From contig JAGXRQ010000036.1 in NCBI GenBank assembly GCA_018335675.1, positions 1 to 50,467 of the forward strand: DNA of 50,467 nt, read 5' to 3'. Under the pieces are notes generated by a model, which had not been told where the DNA came from, did not search any database, and worked only from the letters and a program-made list of their open reading frames with translations. Shown here in pieces: positions 268 through 28,057 of the stretch. Source of the stretch: Bacteroidota bacterium. GTDB taxonomy: Bacteria > Bacteroidota > Bacteroidia > Bacteroidales > UBA7960. The position numbers and the translations under genes are program-made. Positions within the stretch are counted from its first letter, which is position 1; every line of letters begins with the position of its first letter.

Positions 268-1653
268 ATGAGCGAAGATTTTTTTCAAGGATATAAAGGA
301 AGAGCACTTGAAGTACTTAAAAAATTCAATGTAAGGGTGTGGGGCCAGACAAATATAGAAACTACAAGAGGGAATTTCACAGGTACTGTATTGCCTAGAT
401 CTGAAAATGATGATGCCAATCATATCGTTTTAAAAATTCCTACAGGATATAATGTCGGAGTGAATGTTGAAACTATCAAATCTATGGTGGAAACCGGATA
501 TAAAAAGGCAAATTACAAAATTCCGGAGAAGGAGTTTCCTTATACTGAAGGTTTACCTAAAGTAAAACTAATTGGCACAGGAGGAACTATTGCATCTCGA
601 CTTGACTACAGAACAGGAGCTGTTATTCCCGCTTTTACTCCAGGAGAACTTTATGGTGCTGTTCCTGAACTTGCAGATATATGCAACCTTAACACTGAAA
701 AGGTATTTGCCGTTTTTAGTGAAAATATGGGGCCAAGCCAATACAAACATCTGGCCGTTGCAATTGGCAAAGAAATAGAAAATGGAGTTGATGGTATCGT
801 AATTGGGCATGGAACAGATACTTTGCATCATACTGCCGCAGCATTAACATTTATGATTCAGGATCCACCGGTTCCTATTGTTCTTGTTGGTTCACAAAGA
901 TCTTCAGACAGGCCATCTTCCGATGCAGCACTTAATCTTATGCATGCATGTTACACTGCAGGACACGGAGATATTGCAGAGGTAATGGTTTGCATGTTTG
1001 GTCCTACATCAGATGACTATGCTTTTCTTCACAGAGGAACAAGAGTTAGAAAAATGCACTCTTCATATAGAAGTACTTTCAGAACTTTAGGTGATATACC
1101 ACTGGCAAGAGTTTCTCGAAAGGGTATTATCCATATGAAAGAGGATTATAATCAAAGAAGGAAGAAAGGTAAAGCTAAAATACTTCCATACTTTGAAGAA
1201 AAGGTTGCCATTGTTTATTATTATCCTAATATGATGCCTGATATGATTGATTCTCTTGTTGATAATGGGTATAAAGGGATTGTAATTGCAGGTACCGGAC
1301 TTGGCCATGTTAATAAACCGTTGTATGCTCCTCTCGAAAGAGCTTGCAAAGCTGGTGTTTCAGTTTATATGACTGTTCAGACATTATGGGGGTATACACA
1401 AATGTTTGTTTACGAAACAGGTCGCGAACTAATGGCGCTAGGCGTAGTTCCTGCGGCAAATATGCTGCCGGAAGTTGCATATATAAAGCTTGGATGGGCT
1501 TTAGGTCAAACTCATGATCCGGAAGAAGTTAAAAAACTTATGCTTACTCCGATAAAAGATGATATAACGTCAAGAGAACCTTATAATGGATATTTGGTTT
1601 ACCAAGGGGGAATTCCTGAAGTTGATGAATTTGTTAAAAAGTTTAGGAAGTAG
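268..1653 (+). CDS. gatD: Glutamyl-tRNA(Gln) amidotransferase subunit D (GatD), asparaginase-like
   Basis: The 461-residue product has the layout of archaeal GatD: an N-terminal beta domain (about 1-90) and an L-asparaginase-like domain from about 97. The asparaginase signatures are visible as GTGGTIAS (residues 103-110, nucleophile Thr107) and HGTDT (181-185, Thr183-Asp184). GatD releases ammonia from glutamine and passes it to GatE, which converts Glu-tRNA(Gln) to Gln-tRNA(Gln). No gatE is present in the window, so the partner must be elsewhere or the protein may act alone as an amidohydrolase. The start ATG follows a run of twelve or more A residues. A plain type I asparaginase is less likely because of the extra N-terminal domain and the length. 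Confidence 0.85.
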   Translation: MSEDFFQGYKGRALEVLKKFNVRVWGQTNIETTRGNFTGTVLPRSENDDANHIVLKIPTGYNVGVNVETIKSMVETGYKKANYKIPEKEFPYTEGLPKVKLIGTGGTIASRLDYRTGAVIPAFTPGELYGAVPELADICNLNTEKVFAVFSENMGPSQYKHLAVAIGKEIENGVDGIVIGHGTDTLHHTAAALTFMIQDPPVPIVLVGSQRSSDRPSSDAALNLMHACYTAGHGDIAEVMVCMFGPTSDDYAFLHRGTRVRKMHSSYRSTFRTLGDIPLARVSRKGIIHMKEDYNQRRKKGKAKILPYFEEKVAIVYYYPNMMPDMIDSLVDNGYKGIVIAGTGLGHVNKPLYAPLERACKAGVSVYMTVQTLWGYTQMFVYETGRELMALGVVPAANMLPEVAYIKLGWALGQTHDPEEVKKLMLTPIKDDITSREPYNGYLVYQGGIPEVDEFVKKFRK

Positions 1654-1662
1654 GGGGAGGAA

Positions 1663-1702
1663 AGTTAAAAACTAAAAGTTAAAAGTTGAAAACTGAAAGT
1701 TG
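1663..1702. repeat. Short degenerate tandem repeat (AAAGTTnAAAACT type)
   Basis: Just after the gatD stop there are about four imperfect copies of a roughly 10-base unit made of AAAGTT, AAAACT and GAAAGTT, followed by a run of eight G residues. No protein or hairpin explains it. Similar degenerate arrays occur at 5857-5880 and 5901-5943 in this window. Confidence 0.55.
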
Positions 1703-1764
1703 GGGGGGGTGTATATTTTTAAAAATAGATATATGGTTTAGGAATAGAAACTAAATAAAAAAAC

Positions 1765-2670
1765 ATGAAAAAATTGTCGCTTCTAGTTGTTGCATTATTG
1801 CTTCTAAGCTTGTCTTTAGTTGCAAAGGCTCCTGATATTGTTGTTGTTAAGGGGGAGGGTATTTATGAAAACACTCTTTTTGCTGTTGAGAAAATGGGTG
1901 GAATGCAAAGATTTGTTCAACCGGGGCAGAAAGTAGGATTGCTTGTTAATTCAGATTTTAAAGAATATGGAGCATATGTCAATCCTGATATTGTTATTGC
2001 GGTATTGAAGATGATTTTTGATGCAGGTGTATCAGATGTTGTTTTTCTGCAGCCTGTTTCTGAAGAATATTGGAAAAAAAGCAATCTAGCAGAGTCGCAC
2101 TGGGATATAATTTCAAAAACTAGAGGCATTGACGCCAATAAGTTTCCGGCCCAATTTTCTGAAGAGTATTTTGTAAAAATTGAGAATGTTGAAAATGCTA
2201 AAGCAATTAATTTTGAACTTGAAATTGTGAAAGAATTTTTTGATGTAGATGTGTTTATTAATATTCCGATTGCTAAACATCATGCAACTACGGTTCTTAC
2301 TAATGCTATGAAAAATCTAATGGGGTTGAATACAAGGGCATCAAATGTGAAATTTCATCTTAATGGACCATCCAGAAATGACCCTGACTTTATTGCGCAA
2401 TGTATTGTAGATCTAAATCTTTTACGAAAAGCGGATCTGATAATTTCAGACATGACTAATGTGATCAAAACTAATGGACCCGGAGGTCCCGGTGAAATAA
2501 TTAGCCCGATGAAAATTGTTGCTGGAAGGGATGCTGTGGCAATTGATAAATATTGTGCTCAGGAATTAGGGTTTTTCATTGAAGATGTATTAACTGTTCA
2601 AAAAGGATTTGAAGCCGGACTTGGTAAAATTGACTTAAATCAATTGAATATTGTTGAATTTGAGAATTAA
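1765..2670 (+). CDS. DUF362 domain protein, exported
   Basis: The 301-residue protein starts with a signal peptide (MKK followed by a run of Leu/Val/Ser, likely cleaved after about residue 21). The rest matches the DUF362 family: an IVVVKGEG start, a KVGLLVNSDF segment, an NIPIAKHHATTVLTNAMKN block, a central KNLMGL, and a GRDAVAIDKYC block near the C-terminus. DUF362 proteins often carry ferredoxin-type iron-sulfur domains, but no CxxCxxC cluster motif is present here, so this is the stand-alone form. The molecular function of the family is not established. It precedes the DUF6599-like gene by 46 bases on the same strand and probably shares its transcript. Confidence 0.75.
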   Translation: MKKLSLLVVALLLLSLSLVAKAPDIVVVKGEGIYENTLFAVEKMGGMQRFVQPGQKVGLLVNSDFKEYGAYVNPDIVIAVLKMIFDAGVSDVVFLQPVSEEYWKKSNLAESHWDIISKTRGIDANKFPAQFSEEYFVKIENVENAKAINFELEIVKEFFDVDVFINIPIAKHHATTVLTNAMKNLMGLNTRASNVKFHLNGPSRNDPDFIAQCIVDLNLLRKADLIISDMTNVIKTNGPGGPGEIISPMKIVAGRDAVAIDKYCAQELGFFIEDVLTVQKGFEAGLGKIDLNQLNIVEFEN

Positions 2671-11649: not shown

Positions 11650-11860
11650 TTACAAAAATAAGACAGAAATTTCAAGTTTGTCAATATAAACAGAAATCAT
11701 ATGCAATTGTTCCCATTAATAATAATTTTTTCCAATACAATTTTTCTTACCAAAAACTATAATACAATAATTGTTAATGCAACAATTTATAGGGTTTTTC
11801 GTACAAATATTTGCGTAAAAATTCGTATATTGTAAACATAAATGTTTCCTGCTATTTGTG

Positions 11861-14800
11861 ATGAAAAAGTATACTGTGTTAGTTTTTTTCTTATTGACAG
11901 TTGCCCTAAAGCCTAGTTTAGGGCAGACTGACACAGAGTTTTGGTTTGCTGCGCCAAGAATTACAACAGGGCATGGTACCGGAGGTATCCCTATTTATAT
12001 TAGACTTGCATCGGCAAATTTAGCTTCAGACATAACTATATCAGTGCCTGCAAATCCTGCTTTTACTCCTATTTACATTAATCTGCCCGCAAACACTGCT
12101 CATACTCAAGATGTTTCAGCTTTTCGTGCTTTTTTCGAGAATGAACCTTTTGATCAAGTTTTAAATAGGGGGATATTAATAGAGGCAACAAATTTAATTA
12201 CAGCATATTATGAAGTTGGGACGCATTTGAATCCAGATATATTCTCATTAAAGGGTAGAAATGCTTTAGGAAATGAATTTTATGTTCCTTTTCAAAATTT
12301 CTTTTCAAATGGTAGTTACACTCCTCAGCCTTATTCTTCTGCATTAATTGTTGCAACTGAAGATAATACAACGGTTACAATTACTCCAACGCGACCGGCA
12401 TTTCCAGGAAGACCTGCGGGAGTGCCATTTACAATTACTTTGAATCGAGGTCAGACTTTCGCTGTTGTTCCAAATGAAATTACGGCCGGGGCTTATCCCC
12501 GAACCGGGCAGTTAGCTGCAAACAGATTAACGGGAACTCATATTGTTAGCAATAAGCCGATTGCTGTTACAACGGCGGATGATTCTGTTAGAGCAAATGA
12601 AGCCAATAATTGGGGTTGCAGAGATTTAATCGGGGATCAGATCGTTCCCGTAAGTATATTAGGTGATGAATATATTGCCATGAGAGGCAGATTATATAAG
12701 CCTCCGGCTAATTCGATGTTTGAATCCTTTTATGTAATTGCAACTGCACCTTCGACTCAAATATTTGTTGATGGAATTTTAAGAGCTACAATAAATGCAG
12801 GTCAAAGCTATCGGCACGAATTTTCAGCTCAAGCGCATTATATCAATTCATCTGAACCGATTTATGTTTATCACGTTGCCGGATTTGGTTGTGAGATGGG
12901 TGGTGGATTGTTGCCGCCTATCAGTGTTTGTACAGGTAGCACTCAAGTTTCATTTACCAGGTCAAAGGGTGAAAGTTTTTTCTTAAATATATTAGTAAGA
13001 GTAGGAGCAGAAGATGGTTTTATTCTTAACGGCAATGGACCAAATACTCTTATTAATCAAGCAATATTTAATCCGGTTCCGGGGACAGACAAGTGGTTGG
13101 CGGGTGAAATAGAGCTTAGCCCTGTTGCCACTATACCAGTTGGGGTAGCCAGTCTAATCTCAAATACTAAGGATGTATTCCACCTTGGCATTATCAATGG
13201 TGGCCCGGGAAGTGGAACAATGTATGGGTATTTTTCTGATTTTAATATACTTGACGTGCAGAGTGTAATTGCCGGTGTTGGGACTGACATTGAGTTGTTC
13301 TGCCACGGCTATCCAATTCAACTTCTTGCTACTGGCGGAACAAGTTATGTTTGGGAACCACCTGATTTTCTTGATGATCCATTTAGTCCCACTCCGATAG
13401 CTTTACCTGATACTACAATTAGATATACGGTAACTGTTAGTGGAGCATGCGATATGACTGATGAAGCCAGTTTAACACTAGTTATTACTGATCCTGTTAG
13501 AGCGATTTTTTCTACAAGCCAAATTAGTGGATGTTCGCCTTTGGAAATATCAGTTTTTAATCATTCAATTGGTGTAACTAATTATTCATGGCGATTTGGT
13601 GATGGGCAGTCATCAAGTATAAATATGTCAGAGTTTGCTTATACTTATATTAATGATACAGATGTTCCACAGCAATATCAATTGATGCTGGTGGGTCGAA
13701 ATCCGTATTTCTGTGTCGATACTATGTATACATACATAACAGTAAACCCTGAAATAAGGGCAGAAGCAAGAGCAAATGTAATTTCAGGATGTGCTCCTCT
13801 AGATGTTGATTTCGAAAGCATAACAACAGGTGCTTCAAAATACCTCTGGAAGTTTGGTGATGGTGGTGAAACAACTCAGGAAAACCCTACTCATAGGTTT
13901 CATAATTACACAAATGAAGAAATCAGTTATCAGGTGGTTCTTAAAGCTTCATCAGATTTTGGTTGTGTTGATTATGATACTTTATATGTTAATGTTAAAC
14001 CATACCTTAAGGGAGGCTTTGCATTTAGTGATCCTGAATACTGCAGCCCGATAAATCTGGAGATACATAATACTTCTGTCGGGTTTATTAGTAGTTTTTC
14101 TTGGGATTTTGATGATGGACAAGCAACTCAGGATATCCCAGACTCCTCGTTTAATTACTTTTTTGAGAATACAGGAGATACGCCTGTAACTCATTATATT
14201 GAGCTAATTGTTGAAAACGTTTTTGGATGTGCTGATGTAATTGTTAAGCCTGTGATAATTCTTCCCAATATCAAATCTGATTTTTCTATTGATGTTGCCC
14301 CGGTTGGATGCAATCCTTTAGAAGTCGATTTTACAAATCTTTCTGAAGGAGCAACTAGTTATTTTTGGACTTTTGGATTAGACCAGGGAGGTTCAATGCT
14401 TGAAAATCCTAATCATATATTTATTAATAATGACCCTGATAATGTTGCTGATTTCTTTGTGCAGCTAATTTCGACATCTGATTATGGATGTAAGGATACT
14501 TCTGATATTTTGATACAAGTTTATCCACGAACTGAAGCTGATTTCTCAACTGATTATGCTGAGTATTGTGCTCCTCAAGATGTTGATTTCACAAATCTTT
14601 CAATTGGTGGTACTTCATTTTTGTGGGATTTTGGGGATGGTACAATTGTATATTCTGATGATGCAGTAGTAAATCATACTTTTAATAATCAGGGAAATGT
14701 TGCTGAAACTTTTCTTGTTACACTCACTGTTGAAAATGATTTTGGATGCAAAAGCGTAATTACAAGACCTATTATTATTTATCCTGATATTACTGCGGCA

Positions 14801-17659
14801 TTTATTACCGAAACTTCGGGTTGCCATCCGTTAGAAATTGACTTTTTAAATAATTCGATTGGAGCATCAAGCTATTACTGGGAATTCGGAGACGGTGGGT
14901 CTTCAAATATTGTTAATCCAAATAGAATATACTACAATCCTAGTCATACAGATATTGCTTATGCAACTGTGAGGCTGTTTGCATTATCAGCATTTGGGTG
15001 CAGAGATACAACTGAAACGTTAATTACTATTTTCCCTAAGCCCCTGGCGGAGTTTGAGGCTGATAACAGTCAAGGTTGTGCTCCTTTAGATGTCAGTTTT
15101 ACTGATCAGACAATAGGTGGCTTGCAGTTGTTGTGGAGGTTTGGAGACGGAGTTGTGATAAATGCAGGTATTGGAAATCAGAATCACATTTATAATAATT
15201 CAACAAATAATGCAATACTATTTAATCCTGAACTTTTCGTTACAAATCAATATGGATGTATTGATACATTGTCATATTTTATAAATGTTTTTCCTGAAAT
15301 TTCTGCTGAGTTTAATCTATCAGTTAATGAAGGATGCCATCCGCTTGAGGTAACATTTAGTAATTTATCATCAGGGGCTTCAGCCACAAACCCTTTTCAA
15401 TGGAATTATGGAGATGGAAGTTCGTCTTCAGAGACTGGCAATTCGCATACACATCTATTTGAAAACCCAAGTCATATAAGTATTGCCGAATACCAAATTA
15501 AGCTAAATGCAAAATCTAGTTATGGTTGTGTTGATTCTTTAACAAAAAGTGTAAGAGTTTTCCCCAAACCTAAATCACTGTTCGATTCTCCTGATGATGC
15601 TATATGTAGTCCTGCTGTTGTTTCATTCACAGATCAGTCAATTGGAGGGTTGTTTTATACCTGGAACTTTGGTAATGGATTCCAGTCCGGAGTATCAGGT
15701 AGTGTTACTCATACATTTAATCAGCCTGCAGGGCAGGGTATTGGGTGGTTTGAAACGTCCTTATATATTGTTAATCAATATGGTTGCAATGACACATACT
15801 CTAAGCAAGTGAAGGTTTACCCTTTGGTTACATCATCTTTTGCAGGTAATATTAGTGGATGCCACCCATTAACAGTTAACTTCATAAATAATTCAACAGG
15901 AGGAAACACCTATCAATGGTCATTTGGTGACAATACTTTTTCAAATTTATTTACACCTCAAAAGTTGTTTAATAATTTTAGTAATACTAATTCTCAGCAA
16001 TATAATGTAACGCTTACAACTACTTCAGAATATGGTTGTGTTGCTTCTTATCAAAGACAAGTAAATGTTTATCCGGTGCCAAAATCTGAATTTACTATCA
16101 CCCCTAATCAAGCCTGTTCTCCTATTAATGTTAGGATAAACAATCTTTCTGTTGGGGGTTCCAATTTTAATTGGAATTTTGGAAATGGCTCATCTACAAA
16201 TTCTAGTCCGGTTTTCTATAGAGTATTTAGAAACCAAATAACAGAACCCAAAACTTTCAATGTTTTACTAACTGTTGGCAATACAAATGGCTGTAGTAGT
16301 CAGTATTCGCAATCTGTTTTGGTTTATCCGGAAGTTAAAGCAGAATTCTCAACTCAATCAGGAGTTTTTGCAGGATGCACTCCAATTACATTGAATTTTG
16401 TTAATGAATCTGTACTCGCTAATCAGTTTGATTGGTCTTTTGGCGATGGTGTTACAAGTACCTTGTTAAATCCAACCCACATGTTTATTACTACCGATGA
16501 TGTGCAAACGGATTATGATGTAAGGCTTATTGCAACTTCCCGATATGGATGCAAAGATACTGTCGATAAGGTTGTTGAGGTTTATCCAAAACCAATTGCA
16601 GATTTCTTTGTTAATCCGTTTGAGCAGTTTTATCCTTCAACAACTGTTAGTTTAAGAAATTTAAGCAGTTTAGGTAATTGGAATTTTAAATGGGAGTTAG
16701 GAGATGGATTTATCCTTAACACAACCAACAGAGATGAGTTTGATTATACCTATCAATGGACAGACGGAGTATATCAAACAAGATATTACAATATAAGGTT
16801 GCAGGCTTCCAATCCATATTGCAATGACATAATTACAAAACAGATTATGATTAAGGCTCCTCATCCTGTAGTTGGGTTTTCTCCTTCAGCTCAAGGTTGT
16901 CCTCCCTTTGAAGTTCAATTTGTAAATCAATCTCTTTACGGATTGTATTATTATTGGGACTTCGGCGATGGAAATACATCAAATGCAGTAAGCCCGTTTC
17001 ATGTATTTGAAGAACCTGGCAATTTTCTTGTGAAGTTGGTTGTTGAAGGTGATGGAGGATTAGATTCTGCATATCAAACTATTACGGTTTTTTACCCACC
17101 GATTGCTGATTTTAGAGTAGACCCTGATAGTGTTCAGCTGCCATATGATTTTGTTAGAATGATAAATCTCAGTAGTTTAGGAGCTACATTTGAATGGCAT
17201 TTTGGAGATGGCGCTATTTCTTTTGACTTTGAGCCTATTCATTATTATCCGGAAGCAGGAGTTTATGATGTTACGTTAATTGTTGGAACAGATACATATC
17301 CACAGTGCTTTGATACAATGACGAAATTAGGCGCTGTAGTTGCTGCTGAGCCATGCAATATTTATTTTCCCAATGCATTTATCCCTGATGCTTCAGGCCC
17401 TCAAGGTGGAAGTTATGTTATTGGCGATCCCTCAAATAAAATATTTCATCCGATACAGGAAGGAGTGGAAGAATATGTTTTAGAGATTTATAACAGATGG
17501 GGCGAGTTGATATTCCGAACAGAAGATGTAAATTATGGGTGGGATGGATATTTTAGAGGAAAACTGGTGAATACAGGAGTCTATGTGTATAAAGTATGGG
17601 CAACTTGCAGCAATGGAAATAGAATAAAAAAAGCAGGAGATGTAACAGTTTACAGATAA
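11861..17659 (+). CDS. Giant PKD-repeat surface protein, T9SS type B cargo
   Basis: The ATG at 11861 starts a 1932-residue protein; the frame also has a GTG one codon earlier, which is less likely. A signal peptide ends at SLGQ. Residues 24-about 470 resemble the IgGFc-binding-like N-terminal domain of Bacteroidota surface proteins. Then come fifteen PKD-like domains, each with a W/F-x-F-G-D-G-type core. Most start with G-C-x-P-L and have a second Cys near the end (YGCxD), suggesting one disulfide per domain. The last 100 residues (NIYFPNAFIP ... NRWGELIF ... GWDGYFRGK ... GVYVYKVWA) are the gliding-motility-associated C-terminal domain (CHU_C, type B sorting signal) for T9SS. The PorP/SprF gene directly downstream supports this. 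Confidence 0.92.
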   Translation: MKKYTVLVFFLLTVALKPSLGQTDTEFWFAAPRITTGHGTGGIPIYIRLASANLASDITISVPANPAFTPIYINLPANTAHTQDVSAFRAFFENEPFDQVLNRGILIEATNLITAYYEVGTHLNPDIFSLKGRNALGNEFYVPFQNFFSNGSYTPQPYSSALIVATEDNTTVTITPTRPAFPGRPAGVPFTITLNRGQTFAVVPNEITAGAYPRTGQLAANRLTGTHIVSNKPIAVTTADDSVRANEANNWGCRDLIGDQIVPVSILGDEYIAMRGRLYKPPANSMFESFYVIATAPSTQIFVDGILRATINAGQSYRHEFSAQAHYINSSEPIYVYHVAGFGCEMGGGLLPPISVCTGSTQVSFTRSKGESFFLNILVRVGAEDGFILNGNGPNTLINQAIFNPVPGTDKWLAGEIELSPVATIPVGVASLISNTKDVFHLGIINGGPGSGTMYGYFSDFNILDVQSVIAGVGTDIELFCHGYPIQLLATGGTSYVWEPPDFLDDPFSPTPIALPDTTIRYTVTVSGACDMTDEASLTLVITDPVRAIFSTSQISGCSPLEISVFNHSIGVTNYSWRFGDGQSSSINMSEFAYTYINDTDVPQQYQLMLVGRNPYFCVDTMYTYITVNPEIRAEARANVISGCAPLDVDFESITTGASKYLWKFGDGGETTQENPTHRFHNYTNEEISYQVVLKASSDFGCVDYDTLYVNVKPYLKGGFAFSDPEYCSPINLEIHNTSVGFISSFSWDFDDGQATQDIPDSSFNYFFENTGDTPVTHYIELIVENVFGCADVIVKPVIILPNIKSDFSIDVAPVGCNPLEVDFTNLSEGATSYFWTFGLDQGGSMLENPNHIFINNDPDNVADFFVQLISTSDYGCKDTSDILIQVYPRTEADFSTDYAEYCAPQDVDFTNLSIGGTSFLWDFGDGTIVYSDDAVVNHTFNNQGNVAETFLVTLTVENDFGCKSVITRPIIIYPDITAAFITETSGCHPLEIDFLNNSIGASSYYWEFGDGGSSNIVNPNRIYYNPSHTDIAYATVRLFALSAFGCRDTTETLITIFPKPLAEFEADNSQGCAPLDVSFTDQTIGGLQLLWRFGDGVVINAGIGNQNHIYNNSTNNAILFNPELFVTNQYGCIDTLSYFINVFPEISAEFNLSVNEGCHPLEVTFSNLSSGASATNPFQWNYGDGSSSSETGNSHTHLFENPSHISIAEYQIKLNAKSSYGCVDSLTKSVRVFPKPKSLFDSPDDAICSPAVVSFTDQSIGGLFYTWNFGNGFQSGVSGSVTHTFNQPAGQGIGWFETSLYIVNQYGCNDTYSKQVKVYPLVTSSFAGNISGCHPLTVNFINNSTGGNTYQWSFGDNTFSNLFTPQKLFNNFSNTNSQQYNVTLTTTSEYGCVASYQRQVNVYPVPKSEFTITPNQACSPINVRINNLSVGGSNFNWNFGNGSSTNSSPVFYRVFRNQITEPKTFNVLLTVGNTNGCSSQYSQSVLVYPEVKAEFSTQSGVFAGCTPITLNFVNESVLANQFDWSFGDGVTSTLLNPTHMFITTDDVQTDYDVRLIATSRYGCKDTVDKVVEVYPKPIADFFVNPFEQFYPSTTVSLRNLSSLGNWNFKWELGDGFILNTTNRDEFDYTYQWTDGVYQTRYYNIRLQASNPYCNDIITKQIMIKAPHPVVGFSPSAQGCPPFEVQFVNQSLYGLYYYWDFGDGNTSNAVSPFHVFEEPGNFLVKLVVEGDGGLDSAYQTITVFYPPIADFRVDPDSVQLPYDFVRMINLSSLGATFEWHFGDGAISFDFEPIHYYPEAGVYDVTLIVGTDTYPQCFDTMTKLGAVVAAEPCNIYFPNAFIPDASGPQGGSYVIGDPSNKIFHPIQEGVEEYVLEIYNRWGELIFRTEDVNYGWDGYFRGKLVNTGVYVYKVWATCSNGNRIKKAGDVTVYR

Positions 17660-17729
17660 ATACATATAAAGAATAAATAGATGTTTGATAAAATTTGTAA
17701 TATTGCCAAAAAAAAATAGTTTTAAATAC

Positions 17730-18773
17730 ATGCAAAACAAAAATAGATATATCATAAGTAAGGTATTCAAAATCAATTTGATGATTTTGGCATTACTTGT
17801 TTTGCATGTTGGTGTTGCAATTGGTCAAAAACCGCAGTTCACACAATTTTATGCATCTCCATTATACTTGGCACCATCATTTACGGGTGCTACTGATGGC
17901 TCCCGTGCAGCCCTTAATTATAGAAACCAATGGCCTGAAATTCCTGGTGCATTTGTAACATATGCTTTTTCTCTTGATCACTTCTTCCATAATTACAATA
18001 GTGGATTAGGTTTGTTTATTTTAAGGGATGAAGCAGGTAGCGCAAGGCTTGGAAATACAACAGCAGGAATTCTTTACTCTTATGTTTTTAATGCAGACCA
18101 TAGATGGACTATGAGGCCTGGCATTCACTTGAATTATACTCAGCAAACTATTGACTATAGTCGTTTAATTTTTGGCGATCAGCTTTCAATTGACGGCAAT
18201 CACTCGCCTAACTCTTTAATTACTTTGCCTCCAATGGAAAATGTTGCATATTTTGATGCTTCATTCTCTTGGCTGGCTTATACTTCTGATATTTGGATTG
18301 GAATAACGGCAGATCATTTAATGATGCCCAATCAATCATTAACCGGGCAAAATGATAGAATTCCATTGAAGTTTAGCCTTTTTGGAGGTTATAAGTGGTT
18401 GTTGTCGGGTACTTACGCCGGTATAGAAGAAGAAAGTATTTCCACAGCATTTTTATATAAGAATCAAGGCTCATTTAATCAATTAGATATTGGGGTTTAT
18501 TGGTTCAAATATCCATTTTCACTTGGACTGCTATATAGAGGTATTCCTATTTTCAATAATCCGGTATATGGAATTGCAAATAATGATGCAGTTGCCATAA
18601 TAGGAGGGTTGAGAACAAAAAATCTGAGAATTGGTTATAGTTACGACTTTACAATTAGCAGATTGATGACATCAACAGGAGGTGCTCACGAAATTTCTCT
18701 AATTTATCATTTTAATCAAGGAGCTCCTGTGAAAAAGCCAGGCAAAATTCCTTGTCCTGCCAATCAGTTTTAA
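17730..18773 (+). CDS. PorP/SprF-family T9SS outer-membrane protein
   Basis: I prefer the ATG at 17730 (347 residues) because it gives a regular signal peptide ending VAIGQ; the open frame begins earlier. The mature start KPQFTQFYASPLYLAPSFTGA is the PorP/SprF family signature, and the rest alternates hydrophobic strands as expected for a beta-barrel, ending DFTISRLMTSTGGAHEISLIYHF. SprF-like proteins help secrete and anchor specific type B cargo. The PKD protein with a type B C-terminal domain ends 70 bases upstream, so the two form a cargo-partner pair. Confidence 0.93.
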   Translation: MQNKNRYIISKVFKINLMILALLVLHVGVAIGQKPQFTQFYASPLYLAPSFTGATDGSRAALNYRNQWPEIPGAFVTYAFSLDHFFHNYNSGLGLFILRDEAGSARLGNTTAGILYSYVFNADHRWTMRPGIHLNYTQQTIDYSRLIFGDQLSIDGNHSPNSLITLPPMENVAYFDASFSWLAYTSDIWIGITADHLMMPNQSLTGQNDRIPLKFSLFGGYKWLLSGTYAGIEEESISTAFLYKNQGSFNQLDIGVYWFKYPFSLGLLYRGIPIFNNPVYGIANNDAVAIIGGLRTKNLRIGYSYDFTISRLMTSTGGAHEISLIYHFNQGAPVKKPGKIPCPANQF

Positions 18774-20481: not shown

Positions 20482-21075
20482 TTAACAACCACCAGAAACC
20501 GTTATTTTAGTTTCTTTTGTTGTTGATGCTGCATCAGAGCTGCTTACAGAGCTTCCAATTCTAATATAACGAGGATAATCAAACTTTGCCTTATCTTCAG
20601 AGTAATATCCATAAGCTGGATTAAATTTCTCAATAACGTGTTTTATTACCATTGAATAATTACCTGAAAGAACCAGAATGTTTTCGAATCCATTACCTAC
20701 TAATGTAGTTCTTGCAACATGAGCATCAGATTCTTTGTTGGCAATTATTACCTTGGTTTTATCTTTTTTGAAAACTTTTTTTGATTTCTTAGATAGAATA
20801 TCATTGAATGGAACATTAACAGAACCCTCAATGTGACCTTCTTCGAATTCTTCCTCTGTTCTAATATCAACAAAAATAAAATCTTTAATCCTTTCGCTAT
20901 TTATTATATCATTTAATTCAGCAAAAGGCATTATAGACGATTCATTTGTAATTTCATTAAGAACATCTTTTTTGTTAGTTTTATAGCTCTTGGTTGTAAA
21001 CCAATGAAAAACAAGGGCTAATATTATTACTAGGAAGAATAAAAACGCACTATTGTTTAAATTTTTTATTGCCAT
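20482..21075 (-). CDS. Membrane-anchored rhodanese-like protein with C-terminal GGC
   Basis: The 197-residue protein has one membrane segment (about 10-27) and then a rhodanese fold (FVDIRTEEEFEEGHIEGSVNVPF at about 68-90). Where the catalytic Cys loop should be it reads VIIANKESDAHVA (about 109-121), with no Cys. The only cysteine in the whole protein is the last residue, in the tail KETKITVSGGC. The same kind of tail ends the two related genes upstream. It is last in the cluster, 18 bases downstream of the YeeE-rhodanese fusion. Side of the membrane is unclear: the segment is followed by several lysines. A sulfur-binding or scaffolding role is inferred. Confidence 0.8.
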   Translation of the reverse strand: MAIKNLNNSAFLFFLVIILALVFHWFTTKSYKTNKKDVLNEITNESSIMPFAELNDIINSERIKDFIFVDIRTEEEFEEGHIEGSVNVPFNDILSKKSKKVFKKDKTKVIIANKESDAHVARTTLVGNGFENILVLSGNYSMVIKHVIEKFNPAYGYYSEDKAKFDYPRYIRIGSSVSSSDAASTTKETKITVSGGC

Positions 21076-21093
21076 AATTGTCCTTTTTTATTA

Positions 21094-22323
21094 TTAACAA
21101 CCGCCGCTACCCTCAGGTATTGAAATTTCAATAATTGTTTTAACAGGTTTTTGTTGAGGCCTCAACTCTCTAACTGCTTTTCCTTCAAGGAAAAAATTCT
21201 TTACTTCATTAAGAAATCTATGTCGGTATAATGCCATGAAATCACCATTCTGATCTTCGGGAATGCTTTCTTCAATATTAAAAACAGCGTCAAAGAATCC
21301 ATTAAGTCCACCTTTAAGTATATGAATATTGCTGTAACCTGCTCTGGCAGCTATCATCCAGGCATTTGCAGCGTTAGATTCTCCATCGGAATAAAACAGT
21401 TTCTTCTGGTTTTTATCTCTTAAGATACTTCTGTATTGATTGTCTAATAAGTTTTTTAAAGGAATATTAATGGCGCCAGGCATCATAAATCTGTTTGCAC
21501 TTTCAGCGTCTCTAACATCTATAAATACACACTCTGCCTCTTCCCTGATAATTCTATAAGCCACTTCGACAGCATCAACGTGATACTCTTGAGAATTATA
21601 CATTTCCAATACTGTTTCAGGCGACCTTTCGTGAAGGCTACTAGCACGCTCTGCAGGAAGGAAAAGATATATTGTCATAAGAACCATTAGCAAAAATGAC
21701 GGCATTGTATAATTCGGTCTATCATCAAATTTCTTATAGTCAACTTTATTAGTTTTATCCTCAATAATTTTTGTAAAAATAAATGCCATTAAAGCCATAA
21801 AAGCTAAAAAGAAAGCAAACCATTTTTTCGACATTCCTAAAGAGTCATAAATAAATGGCTGTCCTAAATAACTACCTTTATAAATTGGCTCAAAATCAGA
21901 ATAGAAATGCCCGAAAATGAAAATCCCTAAAAATGCTCCCAGTATAAAAACCATGGCATCAATTTTCCCAATTACGGCAGCTACGACGCTTGTTCCTGGG
22001 CAAAAGCCTCCCAGTATAAAGCCAAATCCCATAATTACTCCGCCAACAATTGCAGACCAAAGGTATGTTGGGTTTATATAAATAAGATCCATGTCAACCC
22101 AGCCCAAGTAACTCATAAAGACAAGTCCTGTCATTGCAGTAATTCCTGCTGTAAAAAACACTCTCAAGACAACGAAATCATAGCCGTAAAAAACTCCTGC
22201 AAGTTTTTTAGAGGAAGAAAATCCTGCTTGTTCTAGAATATAACCGAATCCAAAACCTATTATCAGAGCGAAGAACAGGTTGAGTTCCGGGTTTACTAAT
22301 CCTTGTGGTATAAAAGGAGCCAT
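21094..22323 (-). CDS. YeeE/YedE transporter half fused to rhodanese domain, C-terminal GGC
   Basis: The 409-residue protein has about six to seven membrane segments in residues 12-225. The YeeE/YedE motif GGFCPGTS contains Cys108. Residues about 235-345 are a rhodanese domain (CVFIDVRDAESANRFMMPGAINIPL), but the active-site loop reads LFYSDGESNA (309-318) without Cys. The protein ends EISIPEGSGGC. YeeE/TsuA proteins import thiosulfate through conserved cysteines; family assignment is clear, substrate is inferred. It lies 18 bases after the companion half. A rhodanese fused to the transporter suggests sulfur is handed over at the channel. Confidence 0.85.
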   Translation of the reverse strand: MAPFIPQGLVNPELNLFFALIIGFGFGYILEQAGFSSSKKLAGVFYGYDFVVLRVFFTAGITAMTGLVFMSYLGWVDMDLIYINPTYLWSAIVGGVIMGFGFILGGFCPGTSVVAAVIGKIDAMVFILGAFLGIFIFGHFYSDFEPIYKGSYLGQPFIYDSLGMSKKWFAFFLAFMALMAFIFTKIIEDKTNKVDYKKFDDRPNYTMPSFLLMVLMTIYLFLPAERASSLHERSPETVLEMYNSQEYHVDAVEVAYRIIREEAECVFIDVRDAESANRFMMPGAINIPLKNLLDNQYRSILRDKNQKKLFYSDGESNAANAWMIAARAGYSNIHILKGGLNGFFDAVFNIEESIPEDQNGDFMALYRHRFLNEVKNFFLEGKAVRELRPQQKPVKTIIEISIPEGSGGC

Positions 22324-22341
22324 ATTTATTAGTTTTTTAAA

Positions 22342-22860
22342 TTAAACCCACAATTTCTTGAAAAAATAAGCAATTACGTAGCCTGTTCCGAAGATAGCCA
22401 TCATTGTAAGAATGCCGCCAGTGCTTAACACAGCCATTCCGCTTAGTGCTGCCCCACTTGTGCATCCTCTTCCGAATTGTGCTCCAAGTCCGAACAAAAC
22501 ACCTCCTGACAGAGCAAAAATAAGTCTTGTTAATGCGCTTATCCTTGGGCCTCTCTCAACTTTAAGTCCAAGTCTGCCCGCCATCGCGCCACTAAAGAAC
22601 CCGCCGAAAATAACTCCAATAACCAGATATACTAGCCAAGAATTCAATGGGTTATTTCCGGGTGTGAAATACTCCTCATAAAACGCCGATTTTTCAGCAT
22701 ATTCGGGAGCAGTACTTCCGACTGTTGAAATAACTACACTTTTTGCAGCGCCTGATGCGCCAAGACCACGGCCTGTAATAACAAATGCTGACAGTAGAAC
22801 CAGGCCTAGCAGAAAGCCGGCCAAGTATGGGTTCATGTAACTTTTTGGATTAACGCTCAT
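22342..22860 (-). CDS. YeeE/YedE family transporter half
   Basis: I start at the ATG at 22860 (172 residues); the open frame extends to a TTG at 22884 that would overlap the upstream stop. The protein has four to five membrane segments and the family motif GRGCTSGAAL with Cys133. Full-length YeeE/YedE proteins carry two such Cys-containing repeats; here they are split over this gene and the next. The two halves probably assemble as a heterodimer. It sits between the double-rhodanese lipoprotein and the fusion gene, with gaps of 17 and 18 bases. Confidence 0.88.
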   Translation of the reverse strand: MSVNPKSYMNPYLAGFLLGLVLLSAFVITGRGLGASGAAKSVVISTVGSTAPEYAEKSAFYEEYFTPGNNPLNSWLVYLVIGVIFGGFFSGAMAGRLGLKVERGPRISALTRLIFALSGGVLFGLGAQFGRGCTSGAALSGMAVLSTGGILTMMAIFGTGYVIAYFFKKLWV

Positions 22861-22877
22861 AATATATTGTGTTTTTA

Positions 22878-23957
22878 TTAGCAACCTCCTTGTATTGTAA
22901 TCGTTTCAGTTTTAACTTCAACTTGTTCTCCATTTTCATCTCCGCTTACTAATGGGAAATTATTAATGTGGATATCCTGAAAACCTCTAAAAGTAGTTTG
23001 TGTTTTAATCATTGTATTATTCATAAATGCATTGGCCCCATATGCCTGATTATAAGCATTGTAGCCTAGTATCCTTAAGTACGCAGTTACAAATGAAGAA
23101 TGACTTGCTGTATAGCAAAATACTGCTATTGGTTTATCAGTAGGTAGTGTAAGTAAGTCTTTATTTCTTGCCAAAGATTGTTTTGGAGCGTAATGTACTG
23201 CTCCGGGAAGGTGACCTTCATCGTAAGTGCTCTTTGGCCAATAACAAATTATAAAATATTTATCAGGATTTTCTAATATCTCTTGAGTAGTAACAACAAC
23301 ATCTTTTAATGAAACATCAAGAATTTCCTGAACTCTGTGCCTTAATGCTTGATATACACTGCTTTGGTCTGTTTTGATTGAAGGAAGACTGCCCATTTCT
23401 GGCTTTGGATATTCCGTTTTATCTAGTTTTCCTTCAAAATATGAGCCCACACCGGCAAGCCAGTAATTCTGAGCTGCTTCACGATTCCATGAGCTTAATC
23501 CATATCGCAGAGTGTAAACATTATCATACCCTAATAGCATTAATGTCATATTTACATATCCTGATAAGAAAGAATTTGGGCAAACCAGAACAATTTTCTC
23601 GAAAGAATTTGGGTCAATTATATTCTCAAAATAATGCAAAATATTAACAGGCCTGACATTTACTGAGTTTGCGATGTGAGCTTCTTTGTATGATTCCTCA
23701 ATTCTTAGATCAATAATAAGATAATTCTTGCCTTTCATGTTTTGATAAACTTCGTCTGCATTTATAAGTGCCGGTACTTTTGCGCTGTTTATCAAGTTGC
23801 CGTTTTCTTCCAGATAATCAATAATCGCAGATGCAGGATTGTCAATTACTGCATTGGTTTGATTTTTATCCGTACTTCCGCATGAATTCAAAATTATTAT
23901 TGAAGATATTATCAGAAGCAGAGTGATTACTTTGAACTTCGAGTTTCTTATATTCAT
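22878..23957 (-). CDS. Double-rhodanese lipoprotein with C-terminal GGC
   Basis: Taking the ATG at 23957 gives 359 residues (the frame opens earlier only at a TTG). The signal peptide ends in a lipobox (IILNSCGS, Cys26), so it should be anchored on the periplasmic side. Two rhodanese domains follow. The first has its catalytic Cys at 126 (VLVCPNSF) and the second at 281 (AVFCYTASH). The tail VEVKTETITIQGGC ends in Cys359. Rhodaneses move sulfane sulfur between thiols, thiosulfate or cyanide. Of the three tailed proteins in the cluster it is the only one with intact rhodanese loops, so it may load the others. Confidence 0.88.
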   Translation of the reverse strand: MNIRNSKFKVITLLLIISSIIILNSCGSTDKNQTNAVIDNPASAIIDYLEENGNLINSAKVPALINADEVYQNMKGKNYLIIDLRIEESYKEAHIANSVNVRPVNILHYFENIIDPNSFEKIVLVCPNSFLSGYVNMTLMLLGYDNVYTLRYGLSSWNREAAQNYWLAGVGSYFEGKLDKTEYPKPEMGSLPSIKTDQSSVYQALRHRVQEILDVSLKDVVVTTQEILENPDKYFIICYWPKSTYDEGHLPGAVHYAPKQSLARNKDLLTLPTDKPIAVFCYTASHSSFVTAYLRILGYNAYNQAYGANAFMNNTMIKTQTTFRGFQDIHINNFPLVSGDENGEQVEVKTETITIQGGC

Positions 23958-23987: not shown

Positions 23988-24638
23988 TTATTCTTTCTTT
24001 TTATTCTCTTTTATATCCTTTTTGTCGTCTTCATCGTCTTCAAGTTCTTCCCACCCTGTAATCATTGCATTAAGGTTAGAAGAAATAGTATGTCCGGTTG
24101 TTATAAGATAGAGATGCACAACAACAAAAGCTATAATCAGATATGCCCCAACTGTGTGCAATAGAGCGATAGGCTCAATGCTTTCGATACCAAGGCTTTT
24201 CATTTCTCCCTGCCATTGATATCTATAGAACATATATAACAAACCAGTAATAATCATTATTGGGAACAGCATTACTTTAAGCATAAAATAAACTATTCTC
24301 TGCAAAGGATTTAGCTTGCTGAGAATGGTTTTTCTTACCGGGTGTGGTGCGTTTCTAAAAATCCCTGTAAGGTAATATTCTATTTGAGATTTTAAGTTTT
24401 TGGTTGTAGGTAAGTACTGTCGCCACTCTCCGGTTGTAAAATGCCAGAATATTGTAAAAACAGTAAGTATTATTAACGCCCATGCGGCCTTGTTGTGAAG
24501 GTCTACAGCACTTTCATATCCAAAGAAAGAAAAGGAACCATGTACTTCAAATCCGGTAAAAGCCAGAAAAACGACTAAAAAAGCCTGAGTCCAGTGCCAA
24601 AATCTTTCATATTTTTTATAAATAAAAACTCGCTTCAT
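23988..24638 (-). CDS. Cytochrome b561-type membrane subunit
   Basis: The ATG at 24638 gives 216 residues and the typical start YKKYERFWHWTQAFLV. Four to five membrane segments carry histidines suited to bind two b hemes (H15 in RFWHW, H48 in DLHNK, the His in FWHFTTG, LLHTVGA and VVHLY). This is the thiosulfate-reductase/hydrogenase cytochrome b fold. It would link the menaquinone pool to a periplasmic redox partner. The C-terminal 30 residues are highly charged (Glu/Asp/Lys). It lies 10 bases downstream of the octaheme cytochrome, so they likely work together. Confidence 0.88.
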   Translation of the reverse strand: MKRVFIYKKYERFWHWTQAFLVVFLAFTGFEVHGSFSFFGYESAVDLHNKAAWALIILTVFTIFWHFTTGEWRQYLPTTKNLKSQIEYYLTGIFRNAPHPVRKTILSKLNPLQRIVYFMLKVMLFPIMIITGLLYMFYRYQWQGEMKSLGIESIEPIALLHTVGAYLIIAFVVVHLYLITTGHTISSNLNAMITGWEELEDDEDDKKDIKENKKKE

Positions 24639-24648
24639 GTTATGAACT

Positions 24649-26220
24649 TTAATTATTAGCCTTAAGTTTTTTGTACGAGATATATCTGAATAAAGCATGT
24701 GACAACGCACCGATAAATGAAAATATTATCAGCAATTTACCAAGGTTGTCAATAGTTGCATTGTATGATTTGCCCGGAATATATATACCTTCAATGCTCT
24801 GTAGCCTGCTGTTGTTCCTTGTGTGGCAATCGGTGCAGGTTAATGCTTCTGAAGATGGTGAAACCATATGGTTAACAGGAAGAAACATTTGACTTTCAAC
24901 AAAATCCCACTTTCCACTATATGGGAGTCCCACATAGTCCATCCCTGTTTTTAGCGCAAGTTCCCAATTGAAGTCGAGCCATAGAGCACCAACCCCCGGA
25001 TGAGGTCCCCATAGTTTAGCTTGAAGTATTGTATGATATTCTGAGTCGTAAGGTTGCTTGCCTGTATGGATTTTCACAGGTACAATTCTGGAATTTTTAT
25101 CACGCGAAGAGCCAAATAATGTATTAATCTTAAGAGGTAAATTATCAAAATCAATTTTATCAGAAAGAAGATGATGATCTGCTGTTCCATTAAACCATAA
25201 ATAATCGGGGATTGCATTAACTGCCCATTGCTGATCTCCTTTTTCGGAAGAATAAACCGGATTGCCCAATGAATCAAGCATTTCATAAGGCATGCCTTCG
25301 GTCTTTTTAGTGGCTGTAGACCAGTCCCATCTCATTTTTGTTGCATTAACTTTTGCATATCTGGGAATGTGACAGGTTTGACAAGCTATTTTCGCAACAT
25401 GTTCATTTAGCTTATAAACTGTATGTGGTGTATTGGTATGACATTGTTCGCAAGTTGCCCTGTTTGTATTTTCAGATGATAATCCATAATAGCGGCCCTT
25501 CATAACATGATTTTCAGCAGTGTGGCAATCGACGCAAGTTAGGTTTGCGCCATCAACACCCATGTGAACATCAACTGTTCGAGGTGCAGTAAGCAAGGCT
25601 AATTCAAGGTCGCCATGCTTAACATTATTACCTCCACCTCCATGAAAGTGACAGTATCCGCAGTTTTCTTTTTTAGGTTTGCCAACGCTTTGAACAATTG
25701 TCTTTAAATCAATACCGGGAGTCGGATATCCTGAACCTCCACGGGCTTTATCATACAGGCCGCTATTGTCATGGCAAGCTAGGCAATCAACATTATACTG
25801 ATTAGTAAAATCAAAGTCTTTATCTGCCCATCCGTAGCCGGCATGACATCTATTGCAAGATGGTTCATTAGAAAAAATTCCTGTGCAAAAATTATTCAGT
25901 AGATTTCTTTTGCCAATATAAGTAATGCCTCTTCCTTCAATATATGCTTCTCTTTCCCATGTGAAATGAGGACTCGATAGTAATTCTTCACCTCTTTTGT
26001 TATGGCATGAAATACAAGTCTCAGTAATTTCATGTGCGTTTTTGAATTCTTTTTGAAGTTCTTTGTGCTGACTATGGTCAACTGATGAAATATGCAATGC
26101 AGCATATTGTGTTTTTAGTTCTTCAAGGTTTGTATTCTCTTTGTATGAATCCCTAAGTACGAATGTAATTATAACCAAAGGAATTACTACAGAAAGGAAA
26201 AAGATTATTGAATTCTTCAT
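24649..26220 (-). CDS. Octaheme c-type cytochrome, tetrathionate reductase (Otr) family
   Basis: The 523-residue protein has an N-terminal membrane anchor (about 4-21), a second hydrophobic segment near the C-terminus (about 494-513), and exactly eight CxxCH motifs, at Cys69, 122, 146, 187, 229, 257, 280 and 462. The spacing, with seven clustered hemes and the last far downstream, matches octaheme tetrathionate reductases, which in Shewanella reduce tetrathionate, nitrite or hydroxylamine. The physiological substrate here is not proven; the sulfur-transfer genes downstream argue for a sulfur compound. It is first in the operon and a good promoter lies 34 bases upstream. Confidence 0.92.
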   Translation of the reverse strand: MKNSIIFFLSVVIPLVIITFVLRDSYKENTNLEELKTQYAALHISSVDHSQHKELQKEFKNAHEITETCISCHNKRGEELLSSPHFTWEREAYIEGRGITYIGKRNLLNNFCTGIFSNEPSCNRCHAGYGWADKDFDFTNQYNVDCLACHDNSGLYDKARGGSGYPTPGIDLKTIVQSVGKPKKENCGYCHFHGGGGNNVKHGDLELALLTAPRTVDVHMGVDGANLTCVDCHTAENHVMKGRYYGLSSENTNRATCEQCHTNTPHTVYKLNEHVAKIACQTCHIPRYAKVNATKMRWDWSTATKKTEGMPYEMLDSLGNPVYSSEKGDQQWAVNAIPDYLWFNGTADHHLLSDKIDFDNLPLKINTLFGSSRDKNSRIVPVKIHTGKQPYDSEYHTILQAKLWGPHPGVGALWLDFNWELALKTGMDYVGLPYSGKWDFVESQMFLPVNHMVSPSSEALTCTDCHTRNNSRLQSIEGIYIPGKSYNATIDNLGKLLIIFSFIGALSHALFRYISYKKLKANN

Positions 26221-26350: not shown

Positions 26351-28057
26351 TTATTCAATAAAAAATTTGATTTCCTTGGTGGATTCATTTCCTAAAATAT
26401 CAGTAGAACGCACGGAAATGACATTAATGCTGTTTCTTATAAAGTCAGTAACAAATCCTTTGTACTCCTGTTCCTTGCCAGAGTTAAGAGTGTAAAAGAT
26501 TTTATCTGTTCCGGTGTGAACATCTTTTGAAGTAATAAATACTTTCAAATGACGAGGATAGGATTCTATTTTTTCTCCATCTATGCTTGTAGTAGCATAT
26601 GAATTAATGCTAAATTCGACTTTGATTTCAGGCCCTGTTATATCAACATATGCTGAGAAATTGCCGGTATTAGCATTGTCAACGTTGTCGAATGCTGTAT
26701 AATACACGCTGTGGAATCCCTGATTCTCAATTCTAAAAGGATTGTTGTATTGAGTTTCTTCTTGATTGCTAATCTTGTATATTATATAATTTAAACCGGA
26801 TTCATTATCTGTGGCATTAAGTATAATTTGCGTTCTAGGAGAAATAAATAAAGTATCTCTGAGGGTTATTTGTGCTCCTCTGATGCTGTGGCTAATTTCC
26901 GGGGCATTAAGGTCAACATAAGGAATGGCAATGCTTGTGCCGCTGGCCGTACTAAAGCTTTTATTGTTGACATTGTCCAAAGCATAAGAGCGGATTGTTA
27001 TATTGCCTGAAACCATAGATAAAAAAACAGGAATTTCATAAAGGAAAAAATCTTTTCCGTTTAGTGAATAGTAAATCTCTTTTACACCTGCTTTATTGTC
27101 AATAGCAGTAATTTTAAGTTGAGATCTGCCAGAGGAGTATTCTCTGCCGCCTCTTATAAACTTATTGCCTAGTATTTCTTCAAATATAATAGGAGGGGTT
27201 TTGTCAAGATAAAAATCGTATGTTTTTGTTTCTTCAATATTTCCAAGGTTGTCAATGGAGTAATATGAAAAACTATGATTTCCTTCTGCAAGTTTAGAGA
27301 TAGACACAGGTTTGTTATATAATGAAGGTTTCTCATCATTTAGCCAATACCATGTTTCTTTAATTCCATTTACATCTGTGGCTTCAAGATTAAACAATGA
27401 CCTAGTAGAAACTATGTTTTCAAGTTGGTCATTTATTATGCTTAGATGTGTTGTAGGGGTAGAATTGTCAATAAAAATAATAAGATGATGTGGGGTTTCT
27501 TTATTTCCAACAAAGTCTTCTGAGTAGTATTTAAGAATGAATTTTTCTGCTTTCTCAAATTTAAGTTTGTTAGTATACTTCTGGAACGAAGAATTATTTA
27601 CAGAATAAAAAATATCCTTTACGCCTGAAATGTTATCTGTTGCAGATAAGTCAATCTCAAATCCCGATGCAGCAATTATAGTGTCATTTTTTTTAATATT
27701 GTCACTTAGTGTGCTGAGCTTTGTTTTGGGCGATTCTCCATCTGCCATAAAAATATATATTTTTTGCTGACTCTTGCTGGGGTCTGCATGTATAAGTCTG
27801 TGTCGGCCCTGATTAATGATTTTTAACGGTTGAGAATTGTTGGATTTAGAATTTAATTGAATTGCGTTTTCTCCAATTGTGTCGGTTGATATAAAGAATA
27901 AAACCTGAGTAGAAGTATTGGTGATTATTCTTCCATCTTTATCCTTAATAATGGGATGATTATTAAGTTCTTTGTTGTTTTCTTGTGAATATGCCGGGCT
28001 TATGATGACAAACATCATCATAATATGAATAAAAAGATTTATTTTCCCGCGCTTCAT
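26351..28057 (-). CDS. Exported protein of OmpL47-like repeats
   Basis: The 568-residue protein has a signal peptide (MKRGKINLFIHIMMMFVIISPAYS). The N-terminal part (about 30-120) resembles the start of the adjacent OmpA gene product. Four to five repeats of about 90 residues follow, each with A-T-D-x-x-S-G-(V/L)-K-x-I-Y-Y-x-(L/V)-N and a Y-x-x-D-N-(V/L)-x-N signature, the pattern of OmpL47-type beta-rich domains. No enzyme motif and no OmpA domain are seen. Role unknown, probably surface or periplasmic structural. It starts 2 bases after the OmpA gene and is last in the operon. Confidence 0.75.
   Translation of the reverse strand: MKRGKINLFIHIMMMFVIISPAYSQENNKELNNHPIIKDKDGRIITNTSTQVLFFISTDTIGENAIQLNSKSNNSQPLKIINQGRHRLIHADPSKSQQKIYIFMADGESPKTKLSTLSDNIKKNDTIIAASGFEIDLSATDNISGVKDIFYSVNNSSFQKYTNKLKFEKAEKFILKYYSEDFVGNKETPHHLIIFIDNSTPTTHLSIINDQLENIVSTRSLFNLEATDVNGIKETWYWLNDEKPSLYNKPVSISKLAEGNHSFSYYSIDNLGNIEETKTYDFYLDKTPPIIFEEILGNKFIRGGREYSSGRSQLKITAIDNKAGVKEIYYSLNGKDFFLYEIPVFLSMVSGNITIRSYALDNVNNKSFSTASGTSIAIPYVDLNAPEISHSIRGAQITLRDTLFISPRTQIILNATDNESGLNYIIYKISNQEETQYNNPFRIENQGFHSVYYTAFDNVDNANTGNFSAYVDITGPEIKVEFSINSYATTSIDGEKIESYPRHLKVFITSKDVHTGTDKIFYTLNSGKEQEYKGFVTDFIRNSINVISVRSTDILGNESTKEIKFFIE

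Follow-up and report, generated by a model that had tools for sequence, protein, structure and literature searches.

Rhodaneses with a conserved C-terminal Gly-Gly-Cys tail and no catalytic cysteine: a putative periplasmic sulfur-carrying arm beside a split YeeE channel in Bacteroidota

We analyzed a 50,467-nucleotide stretch of DNA from a Bacteroidota bacterium (contig JAGXRQ010000036.1 of assembly GCA_018335675.1, lineage UBA7960; the whole stretch is referred to as the window), in which three neighboring rhodanese proteins end in Gly-Gly-Cys (GGC). Two of the three, rhoC and a YeeE-rhodanese fusion, do not harbor the rhodanese catalytic Cys, which was unexpected and had been overlooked in a preliminary description of this DNA. 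Our results make it probable that this tail acts as a swinging thiol arm in the periplasm, similar to that of SoxY, carried by a disarmed rhodanese that delivers sulfane sulfur to YeeE. The genes are arranged on the minus strand in the order octaheme tetrathionate reductase (OTR), b-type cytochrome, rho2, YeeE C-half, YeeE N-half-rhodanese fusion, and rhoC. Tails are present only on rho2, the fusion, and rhoC, and the YeeE C-half, the cytochrome b, and OTR have none. The features of the cluster are as follows.

20482..21075, minus strand: rhoC, with an N-terminal helix at residues 2-27 (anchor), a rhodanese fold, and an arm at residues ~171-197 ending in GGC.
20482..20493, minus strand: GGC-stop of rhoC, GGT GGT TGT TAA.
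21094..22323, minus strand: YeeE-rhodanese fusion, with a YeeE N-half (PmpB-like), a rhodanese domain without the catalytic Cys, and a GGC arm.
21094..21105, minus strand: GGC-stop of the fusion, GGC GGT TGT TAA.
22342..22884, minus strand: YeeE C-half (PmpA-like), with one Cys and no GGC tail.
22878..23957, minus strand: rho2, a putative lipoprotein (LNSC, C26) with two rhodanese domains and a GGC tail.
22878..22889, minus strand: GGC-stop of rho2, GGA GGT TGC TAA.
23988..24710, minus strand: b-type cytochrome (Ni_hydr_CYTB), whose top NCBIfam match, thiosulfate reductase cytochrome B, is under the cut-off.
24649..26220, minus strand: OTR family cytochrome (TIGR04315, 547 bits with a cut-off of 375).

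As the preliminary description had reported, the three open reading frames (ORFs) end KETKITVSGGC (20482-21075), IIEISIPEGSGGC (21094-22323), and KTETITIQGGC (22878-23957), and the codons of the tail differ among them (GGT GGT TGT, GGC GGT TGT, and GGA GGT TGC, respectively). In the genome (3.36 Mb, 98% complete), 19 Gly-Gly-Cys-stop sites were found, consisting of 10 GGNGGNTGYTAR and 9 GGNGGNTGYTGA. Because only three of the 19 terminate an ORF of at least 60 residues, all three in the window cluster, the tails are more than a product of chance.

A homology search with the middle protein, the fusion, identified 287 relatives, of which the best 80 loci were kept; the record titles of all 80 refer to groups of Bacteroidota or to Ignavibacteriae. 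The search made use of six peptide patterns, all of them outside the tail. Among the de-duplicated complete ORFs from these loci and the window, GGC is the end of 53 of 59 rhoC-type ORFs (the others being GGC plus 1-3 residues in three, AGC in one, and untailed in two), 46 of 52 two-domain ORFs (GGC plus 1-3 residues in four, untailed in two), and 80 of 97 ORFs of the YeeE-rhodanese class (GGC plus 1-3 residues in two, VGC in one, untailed in two). The remaining 12 of the 97 are YeeE halves coded apart from the rhodanese, with no place for a tail. The ORFs in these counts, and in the Cys-less, entropy, and YeeE-neighbor counts given below, were not selected for the tail; in alignments A1 (45 of 54 listed rows plus the window) and A2 (48 of 62 plus the window), GGC is invariant by construction, as only tailed rows were entered. 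The tail is thus retained across the best 80 loci and its Cys does not vary freely, which bears out the earlier proposal of conservation at the protein level, while the linker before the tail varies.

More distant relatives narrow down the conserved part. The rhoC profile at 1e-8 matched in 169 of 395 genomes of the phylum, ordinary rhodaneses included. Outside the window, the best 29 loci are L131-L159; in 15 of them the end is REGC, KEGC, or RDGC, beside YeeE, and three further loci (L240-L242) have RMGC ends. These variants indicate that the near-invariant part is Gly-Cys at, or no more than two residues from, the C terminus. In 205 rhodanese ORFs with no catalytic Cys (Cys-less ORFs), the last residue is Cys in 177, the residue at -2 is Gly in 179, and that at -3 is Gly in 167 and Glu in 15; entropy in the tail is 0.8-1.25 bits, versus 2.9-3.9 bits at positions -4 to -30. 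Besides the tail, no column occupied in the window rhoC has Cys in more than 10% of the 59 rows of its family.

These ends bear on two other explanations of the motif. The preliminary description had offered a new C-terminal sorting tag as an alternative, and such a sorting or lipidation tag would account for a short C-terminal motif common to several proteins of one compartment. We regard it as extremely improbable: no hydrophobic or basic stretch follows the motif, GGC is followed by one or two residues in 13 of the 240 tailed ORFs (the other 227 end in GC), GCS and GCA ends exist, and an N-terminal anchor or lipobox appears to be present and probably already provides membrane attachment. 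Moreover, 253 of 254 complete GGC-ended ORFs in L011-L120 (duplicates included) are relatives of the three cluster proteins. The motif might instead be a metal or heme ligand, or a GG-thiocarboxylate precursor from which the Cys is removed, as certain ubiquitin-like sulfur carriers end in GG-C. This, too, is very improbable, as the fold is that of a rhodanese, and the EGC (15/205) and MGC (3/205) ends break the di-glycine, which argues against a thiocarboxylate precursor.

The second line of evidence is the loss of the catalytic Cys. The active-site-loop Cys of an active rhodanese sulfurtransferase is absent from rhoC and the fusion, and is present twice in rho2. In rhoC, Ala112 occupies the catalytic position, and the only Cys, C197, is in the tail. 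The fusion has C108 (in the YeeE part, conserved), C265, and C409 (tail), and rho2 has C26, C126, C238, C281, and C359 (tail), of which C126 and C281 are the catalytic Cys of its two domains. To follow this among relatives, rhodanese ORFs were gathered with a core profile excluding the tail, over all complete ORFs of the fetched loci, leaving out the genome copies L001-L040 and any repeats of the window. The catalytic column was placed by its spacing to a conserved Gly, and the two-domain proteins have Cys there. The 328 distinct ORFs comprise 205 that are Cys-less, 122 with Cys, and one (L241) with no scorable domain; because the sample mixes the tailed families with rhodaneses caught by the rhoC profile elsewhere in the phylum, the proportions are no census. 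A tail, defined as a GC end or GGC plus 1-2 residues, is present on 188 of the 205 Cys-less ORFs (176 + 11 + 1), with the catalytic position occupied by Ser (72), Ala (60), Gly (52), or Asp (2), or unread (2). When one domain with Cys was detected, 65 ORFs are untailed and 19 tailed; the latter include 14 two-domain rho2-type proteins, L187 with only a neighboring Cys, and four true exceptions. Multi-domain ORFs with Cys are tailed in 33 cases and untailed in five.

The rhodanese domain (PF00581) and fold of the tailed proteins were confirmed with Pfam, an AlphaFold model, and fold matches. NCBIfam gave no model above cut-off for the five that were scanned (three from the window, two from L116). 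The model of rhoC has a mean predicted local distance difference test (pLDDT) score of 86.5, with the helix at 2-27, rhodanese core block means of 93-98, and residues 171-197 unstructured (block means of 53-58). In the PDB, most of its top fold matches are proteins with a rhodanese domain (query-normalized TM-scores of 0.32-0.46). The model of the fusion is weaker (mean pLDDT of 74), with most rhodanese blocks above 90, a poor channel part, and residues 387-409 below 50. The arm is thus predicted to be disordered. It is also probably periplasmic, judging from the distribution of charged residues. In 49 fusion sequences, loop charges alternate (no Lys or Arg at the N terminus, +2.0 at 36-44, -1.4 at 73-87, -1.9 at 140-165, and +0.8 at 193-205), which places the rhodanese domain of the fusion outside. 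Among 97 single proteins, Lys and Arg are more numerous before the anchor than after it in 70, equal in 14, and fewer in 13. A lipobox is present in 27 of 52 two-domain proteins and in 1 of 100 single proteins.

The third line of evidence is the association with YeeE. PF04143 matched in both YeeE halves of the window; C108 of the N-half is conserved, and the C-half has a single Cys (its ORF is listed from TTG, an internal ATG start being likelier). Neighbors were counted only in the loci found with the rhoC profile (L131-L239), as those of the fusion search have YeeE by construction. In these loci, which span 1.6-5.6 kb so that some YeeE genes may lie outside, a YeeE match accompanies 48 of 50 tailed rhodanese ORFs versus 6 of 78 untailed ones. 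Both tailed ORFs without a match belong to L134.

Redox enzymes are also frequent neighbors. In 89 loci (the 80 of the fusion search and nine more), OTR is present in 57, OTR with NrfD in two (L082 and L085), PhsA plus NrfD in 14, and neither in 16, giving OTR in 59 and a PhsA/PsrA-type molybdoenzyme in 14. Twelve of the 16 loci without a redox gene are on contigs shorter than 11 kb, and three of these (L054, L078, and L105) hold fragments of cytochrome b or OTR. As the redox partner, OTR and PhsA/PsrA-NrfD replace each other. PhsA-type clusters are carried by the culturable flavobacteria Maribacter and Yeosuana. Three PhsA-like proteins that were scanned score highest with thiosulfate reductase PhsA, under its cut-off. 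The two redox versions seem to follow one another in L082 (1-8839) and L085: a complete OTR cluster bearing three GGC tails is immediately preceded by NrfD, a split YeeE, and a GGCS-tailed rhodanese, although NrfD is all of the first redox version that is on the contig. In L062 (5429-8500) and L064, no OTR, cytochrome b, or PhsA was seen; rho2 and the fusion are untailed, and rhoC keeps its GGC. In L116, from Maribacter, a multiheme cytochrome related to ExtM (622-2523, minus strand; 240 bits with a cut-off of 800) is divergent from a PhsA-YeeE-GGC cluster.

This raises the possibility that the arm serves the redox enzyme rather than the channel, with a tail-bound sulfane sulfur or thiosulfonate as the substrate or product of OTR or a PhsA/PsrA-type enzyme, as SoxY serves the Sox enzymes. 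OTR or PhsA/NrfD is present in 73 of the 89 loci, with most of the others on the short contigs mentioned above; the two loci without redox genes, L062 and L064, have two tails fewer, and in L243, at a contig start, two GGC-tailed rhodaneses accompany PhsA and NrfD matches with no YeeE match in 9 kb. In lucinid symbionts, soxY and soxZ are also reported to adjoin otr, in a study that takes GGC as the SoxY motif (excerpt of PMC11237559). That pairing is taken from the literature, since it was not seen on the two plasmids examined among five with OTR: on the one from Paracoccus ferrooxidans, OTR adjoins suf genes and the annotation of the stretch lists no sox gene, and on the one from Photobacterium the stretch with OTR carries no annotation. 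Searching plasmids with the YeeE fusion yielded a single weak match. We nevertheless regard this possibility as unlikely. The arm is fused to YeeE and not to a redox enzyme, YeeE lies near 48 of the 50 tailed ORFs that were found without a YeeE query, and L240-L242 keep an RMGC-tailed rhodanese beside YeeE, where 19.9 kb of sequence gave no match to OTR, PhsA, or NrfD.

The tails might also form disulfides with one another or with the Cys of YeeE, acting as structural tethers or redox switches. The same terminal Cys on three proteins of one cluster and the long, variable linkers would suit such a role. It is an improbable one, as 14 OTR loci (L095, L097-L101, L103, L104, L106, L108, L112, L115, L119, and L120) have, within the DNA examined, no tailed rhodanese ORF other than the fusion and therefore no partner tail, and a tether does not require loss of the catalytic Cys.

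The sequences themselves show the tail and its conservation, the missing catalytic Cys, the rhodanese fold, and the gene neighborhood; from these we propose the following mechanism for the swinging arm. The Cys-free rhodanese fold of rhoC and of the fusion would be a docking body, with the working thiol on the tip of a disordered arm ~25-30 residues long. Rho2, with two catalytic Cys, is the probable acceptor of sulfane sulfur from thiosulfate, polysulfide, or a product of the redox enzyme, and would load it onto the tail Cys of the arms. In the form of a persulfide or Cys-S-sulfonate, the sulfur would then be delivered by the arms to Cys residues of the split YeeE, with C108 in the PmpB-like half and the single Cys of the PmpA-like half as candidate acceptors and with movement presumably in the direction of uptake rather than export. 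Alternatively, the arms could exchange sulfur with the neighboring redox enzyme.

Several observations weigh against the proposed arm. In rho2, catalytic Cys and tail occur together, so that replacement cannot be the sole role of the tail, and L094, L114, L139, and L140 are single-domain proteins with both. Seventeen Cys-less ORFs are untailed: in L053, L062, L064, and L118 tails have been lost or truncated, L188 is a frameshifted copy whose REGC lies farther downstream, in a different frame, L199 and L203 end in GGLCS, and ten more are other rhodaneses. The ten include L124 on contig C19, the one further rhodanese identified in this genome, which counts as a Cys-less rhodanese without a tail because it has no Cys at the catalytic position and ends in KGKKN. 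A tree of 191 domains, built without the active-site and tail columns, needs 11 changes for the Cys and 10 for the tail, few of them on supported branches, and an independent-pairs test of Cys loss versus tail had two supported pairs and hence no power. The association of Cys loss with the tail depends on a small number of evolutionary events, and the safe reading is one or few origins followed by long conservation. In addition, L062 and L064, without a visible redox gene, have lost two of three tails; no YeeE match was found in 9 kb of the contig end of L134 (L243), in one genome; and the window rhoC has four Lys after its anchor and one before, counter to the positive-inside trend. Searches of the genome for the usual cytosolic acceptor of a YeeE channel gave no match for TusA (controls positive in 11 of 14 genomes) or for DsrE (controls positive in 8 of 14 genomes).

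On balance, we slightly favor the view that Bacteroidota have a separate class of periplasmic carrier, an anchored pseudo-rhodanese whose thiol has moved to a C-terminal (G/E/M)GC arm, which together with a split YeeE and interchangeable redox enzymes forms a Sox-independent shuttle whose origin was parallel to that of SoxYZ. A sulfur shuttle of this kind appears not to have been described; no description of a GGC tail on rhodaneses was found in the open-access titles and abstract openings searched, a scope outside which most of the subscription literature lies. Few sulfur carriers of the periplasm are known to use a swinging arm, and the textbook example is SoxYZ. If the proposal is true, a second carrier design would have arrived at the same GGC arm by convergence, with a disarmed sulfurtransferase tied to a channel. 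It would also suggest a route of sulfur movement for a bacterium without a TusA or DsrE match, and OTR would gain a plausible physiological partner.

Elsewhere in the window, a 568-residue protein with OmpL47-type domains (26351-28057, minus strand; NCBIfam, 216 bits with a cut-off of 40) is encoded just upstream of OTR; the name OmpL47 is familiar from Leptospira surface proteins. On the plus strand, 11858-17659 encodes a repetitive secreted protein of 1,933 residues, whose C terminus we take to be of the type found in gliding and type IX secretion, and 17685-18773, directly after it, encodes a protein that is presumably PorP/SprF-like.

The components of the cluster have counterparts in known systems. 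PmpA and PmpB are two YeeE halves, each with one conserved and needed Cys (excerpt of PMC11582611), and in Escherichia coli YeeD is essential for uptake through YeeE (excerpt of PMC11073785). Like these and the other PF04143 channels, YeeE/TsuA and SoxT, the window has a channel, here as two half-length genes; unlike them, its channel is fused to or beside a GC-tailed rhodanese, with no TusA-family match in the genome. The window OTR resembles the Shewanella octaheme tetrathionate reductase (PDB 1sp3, to which it is related) in its eight CxxCH motifs and its TIGR04315 score, but is clustered with a cytochrome b, a split YeeE, and tailed rhodaneses. OTR has been listed in Bacteroidetes bins and many phyla, with no tailed cluster in the excerpts concerned (PMC7887784 and PMC9040765). 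In the Psr operon of Desulfurivibrio dismutans, a secreted triple-rhodanese lipoprotein lies beside Psr and a relay through YeeE has been proposed; the excerpt (PMC12142623) mentions neither a GGC arm nor loss of the catalytic Cys. The window proteins share the PF00581 family and fold with the rhodaneses GlpE and PspE, but two of the three have a terminal arm Cys in place of the catalytic Cys. DsrC/TusE proteins have a C-terminal Cys arm, and the preliminary description had named them as a parallel; its flexible arm with a terminal Cys stands, being conserved and disordered in the model, but the window proteins have no Pfam DsrC match and their best fold matches are other proteins. By analogy of form, the nearest parallel is SoxY, a periplasmic carrier whose C-terminal arm Cys, within GGCGG, binds sulfur substrates (excerpts of PMC6067878 and PMC5336275), a precedent for a functioning arm of this form in the periplasm; the report of soxY and soxZ adjoining otr in lucinid symbionts is a further precedent. 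The tailed proteins have only rhodanese and Sulf_transp matches in Pfam and no PF13501, and a search of the genome with PF13501 gave 0 matches, as did the controls. They are SoxY-like in outline yet not SoxY, and are not DsrC: they share with SoxY the C-terminal Gly-Gly-Cys motif and differ from it in their rhodanese fold, their membrane anchor, and a Cys that is usually the last residue.

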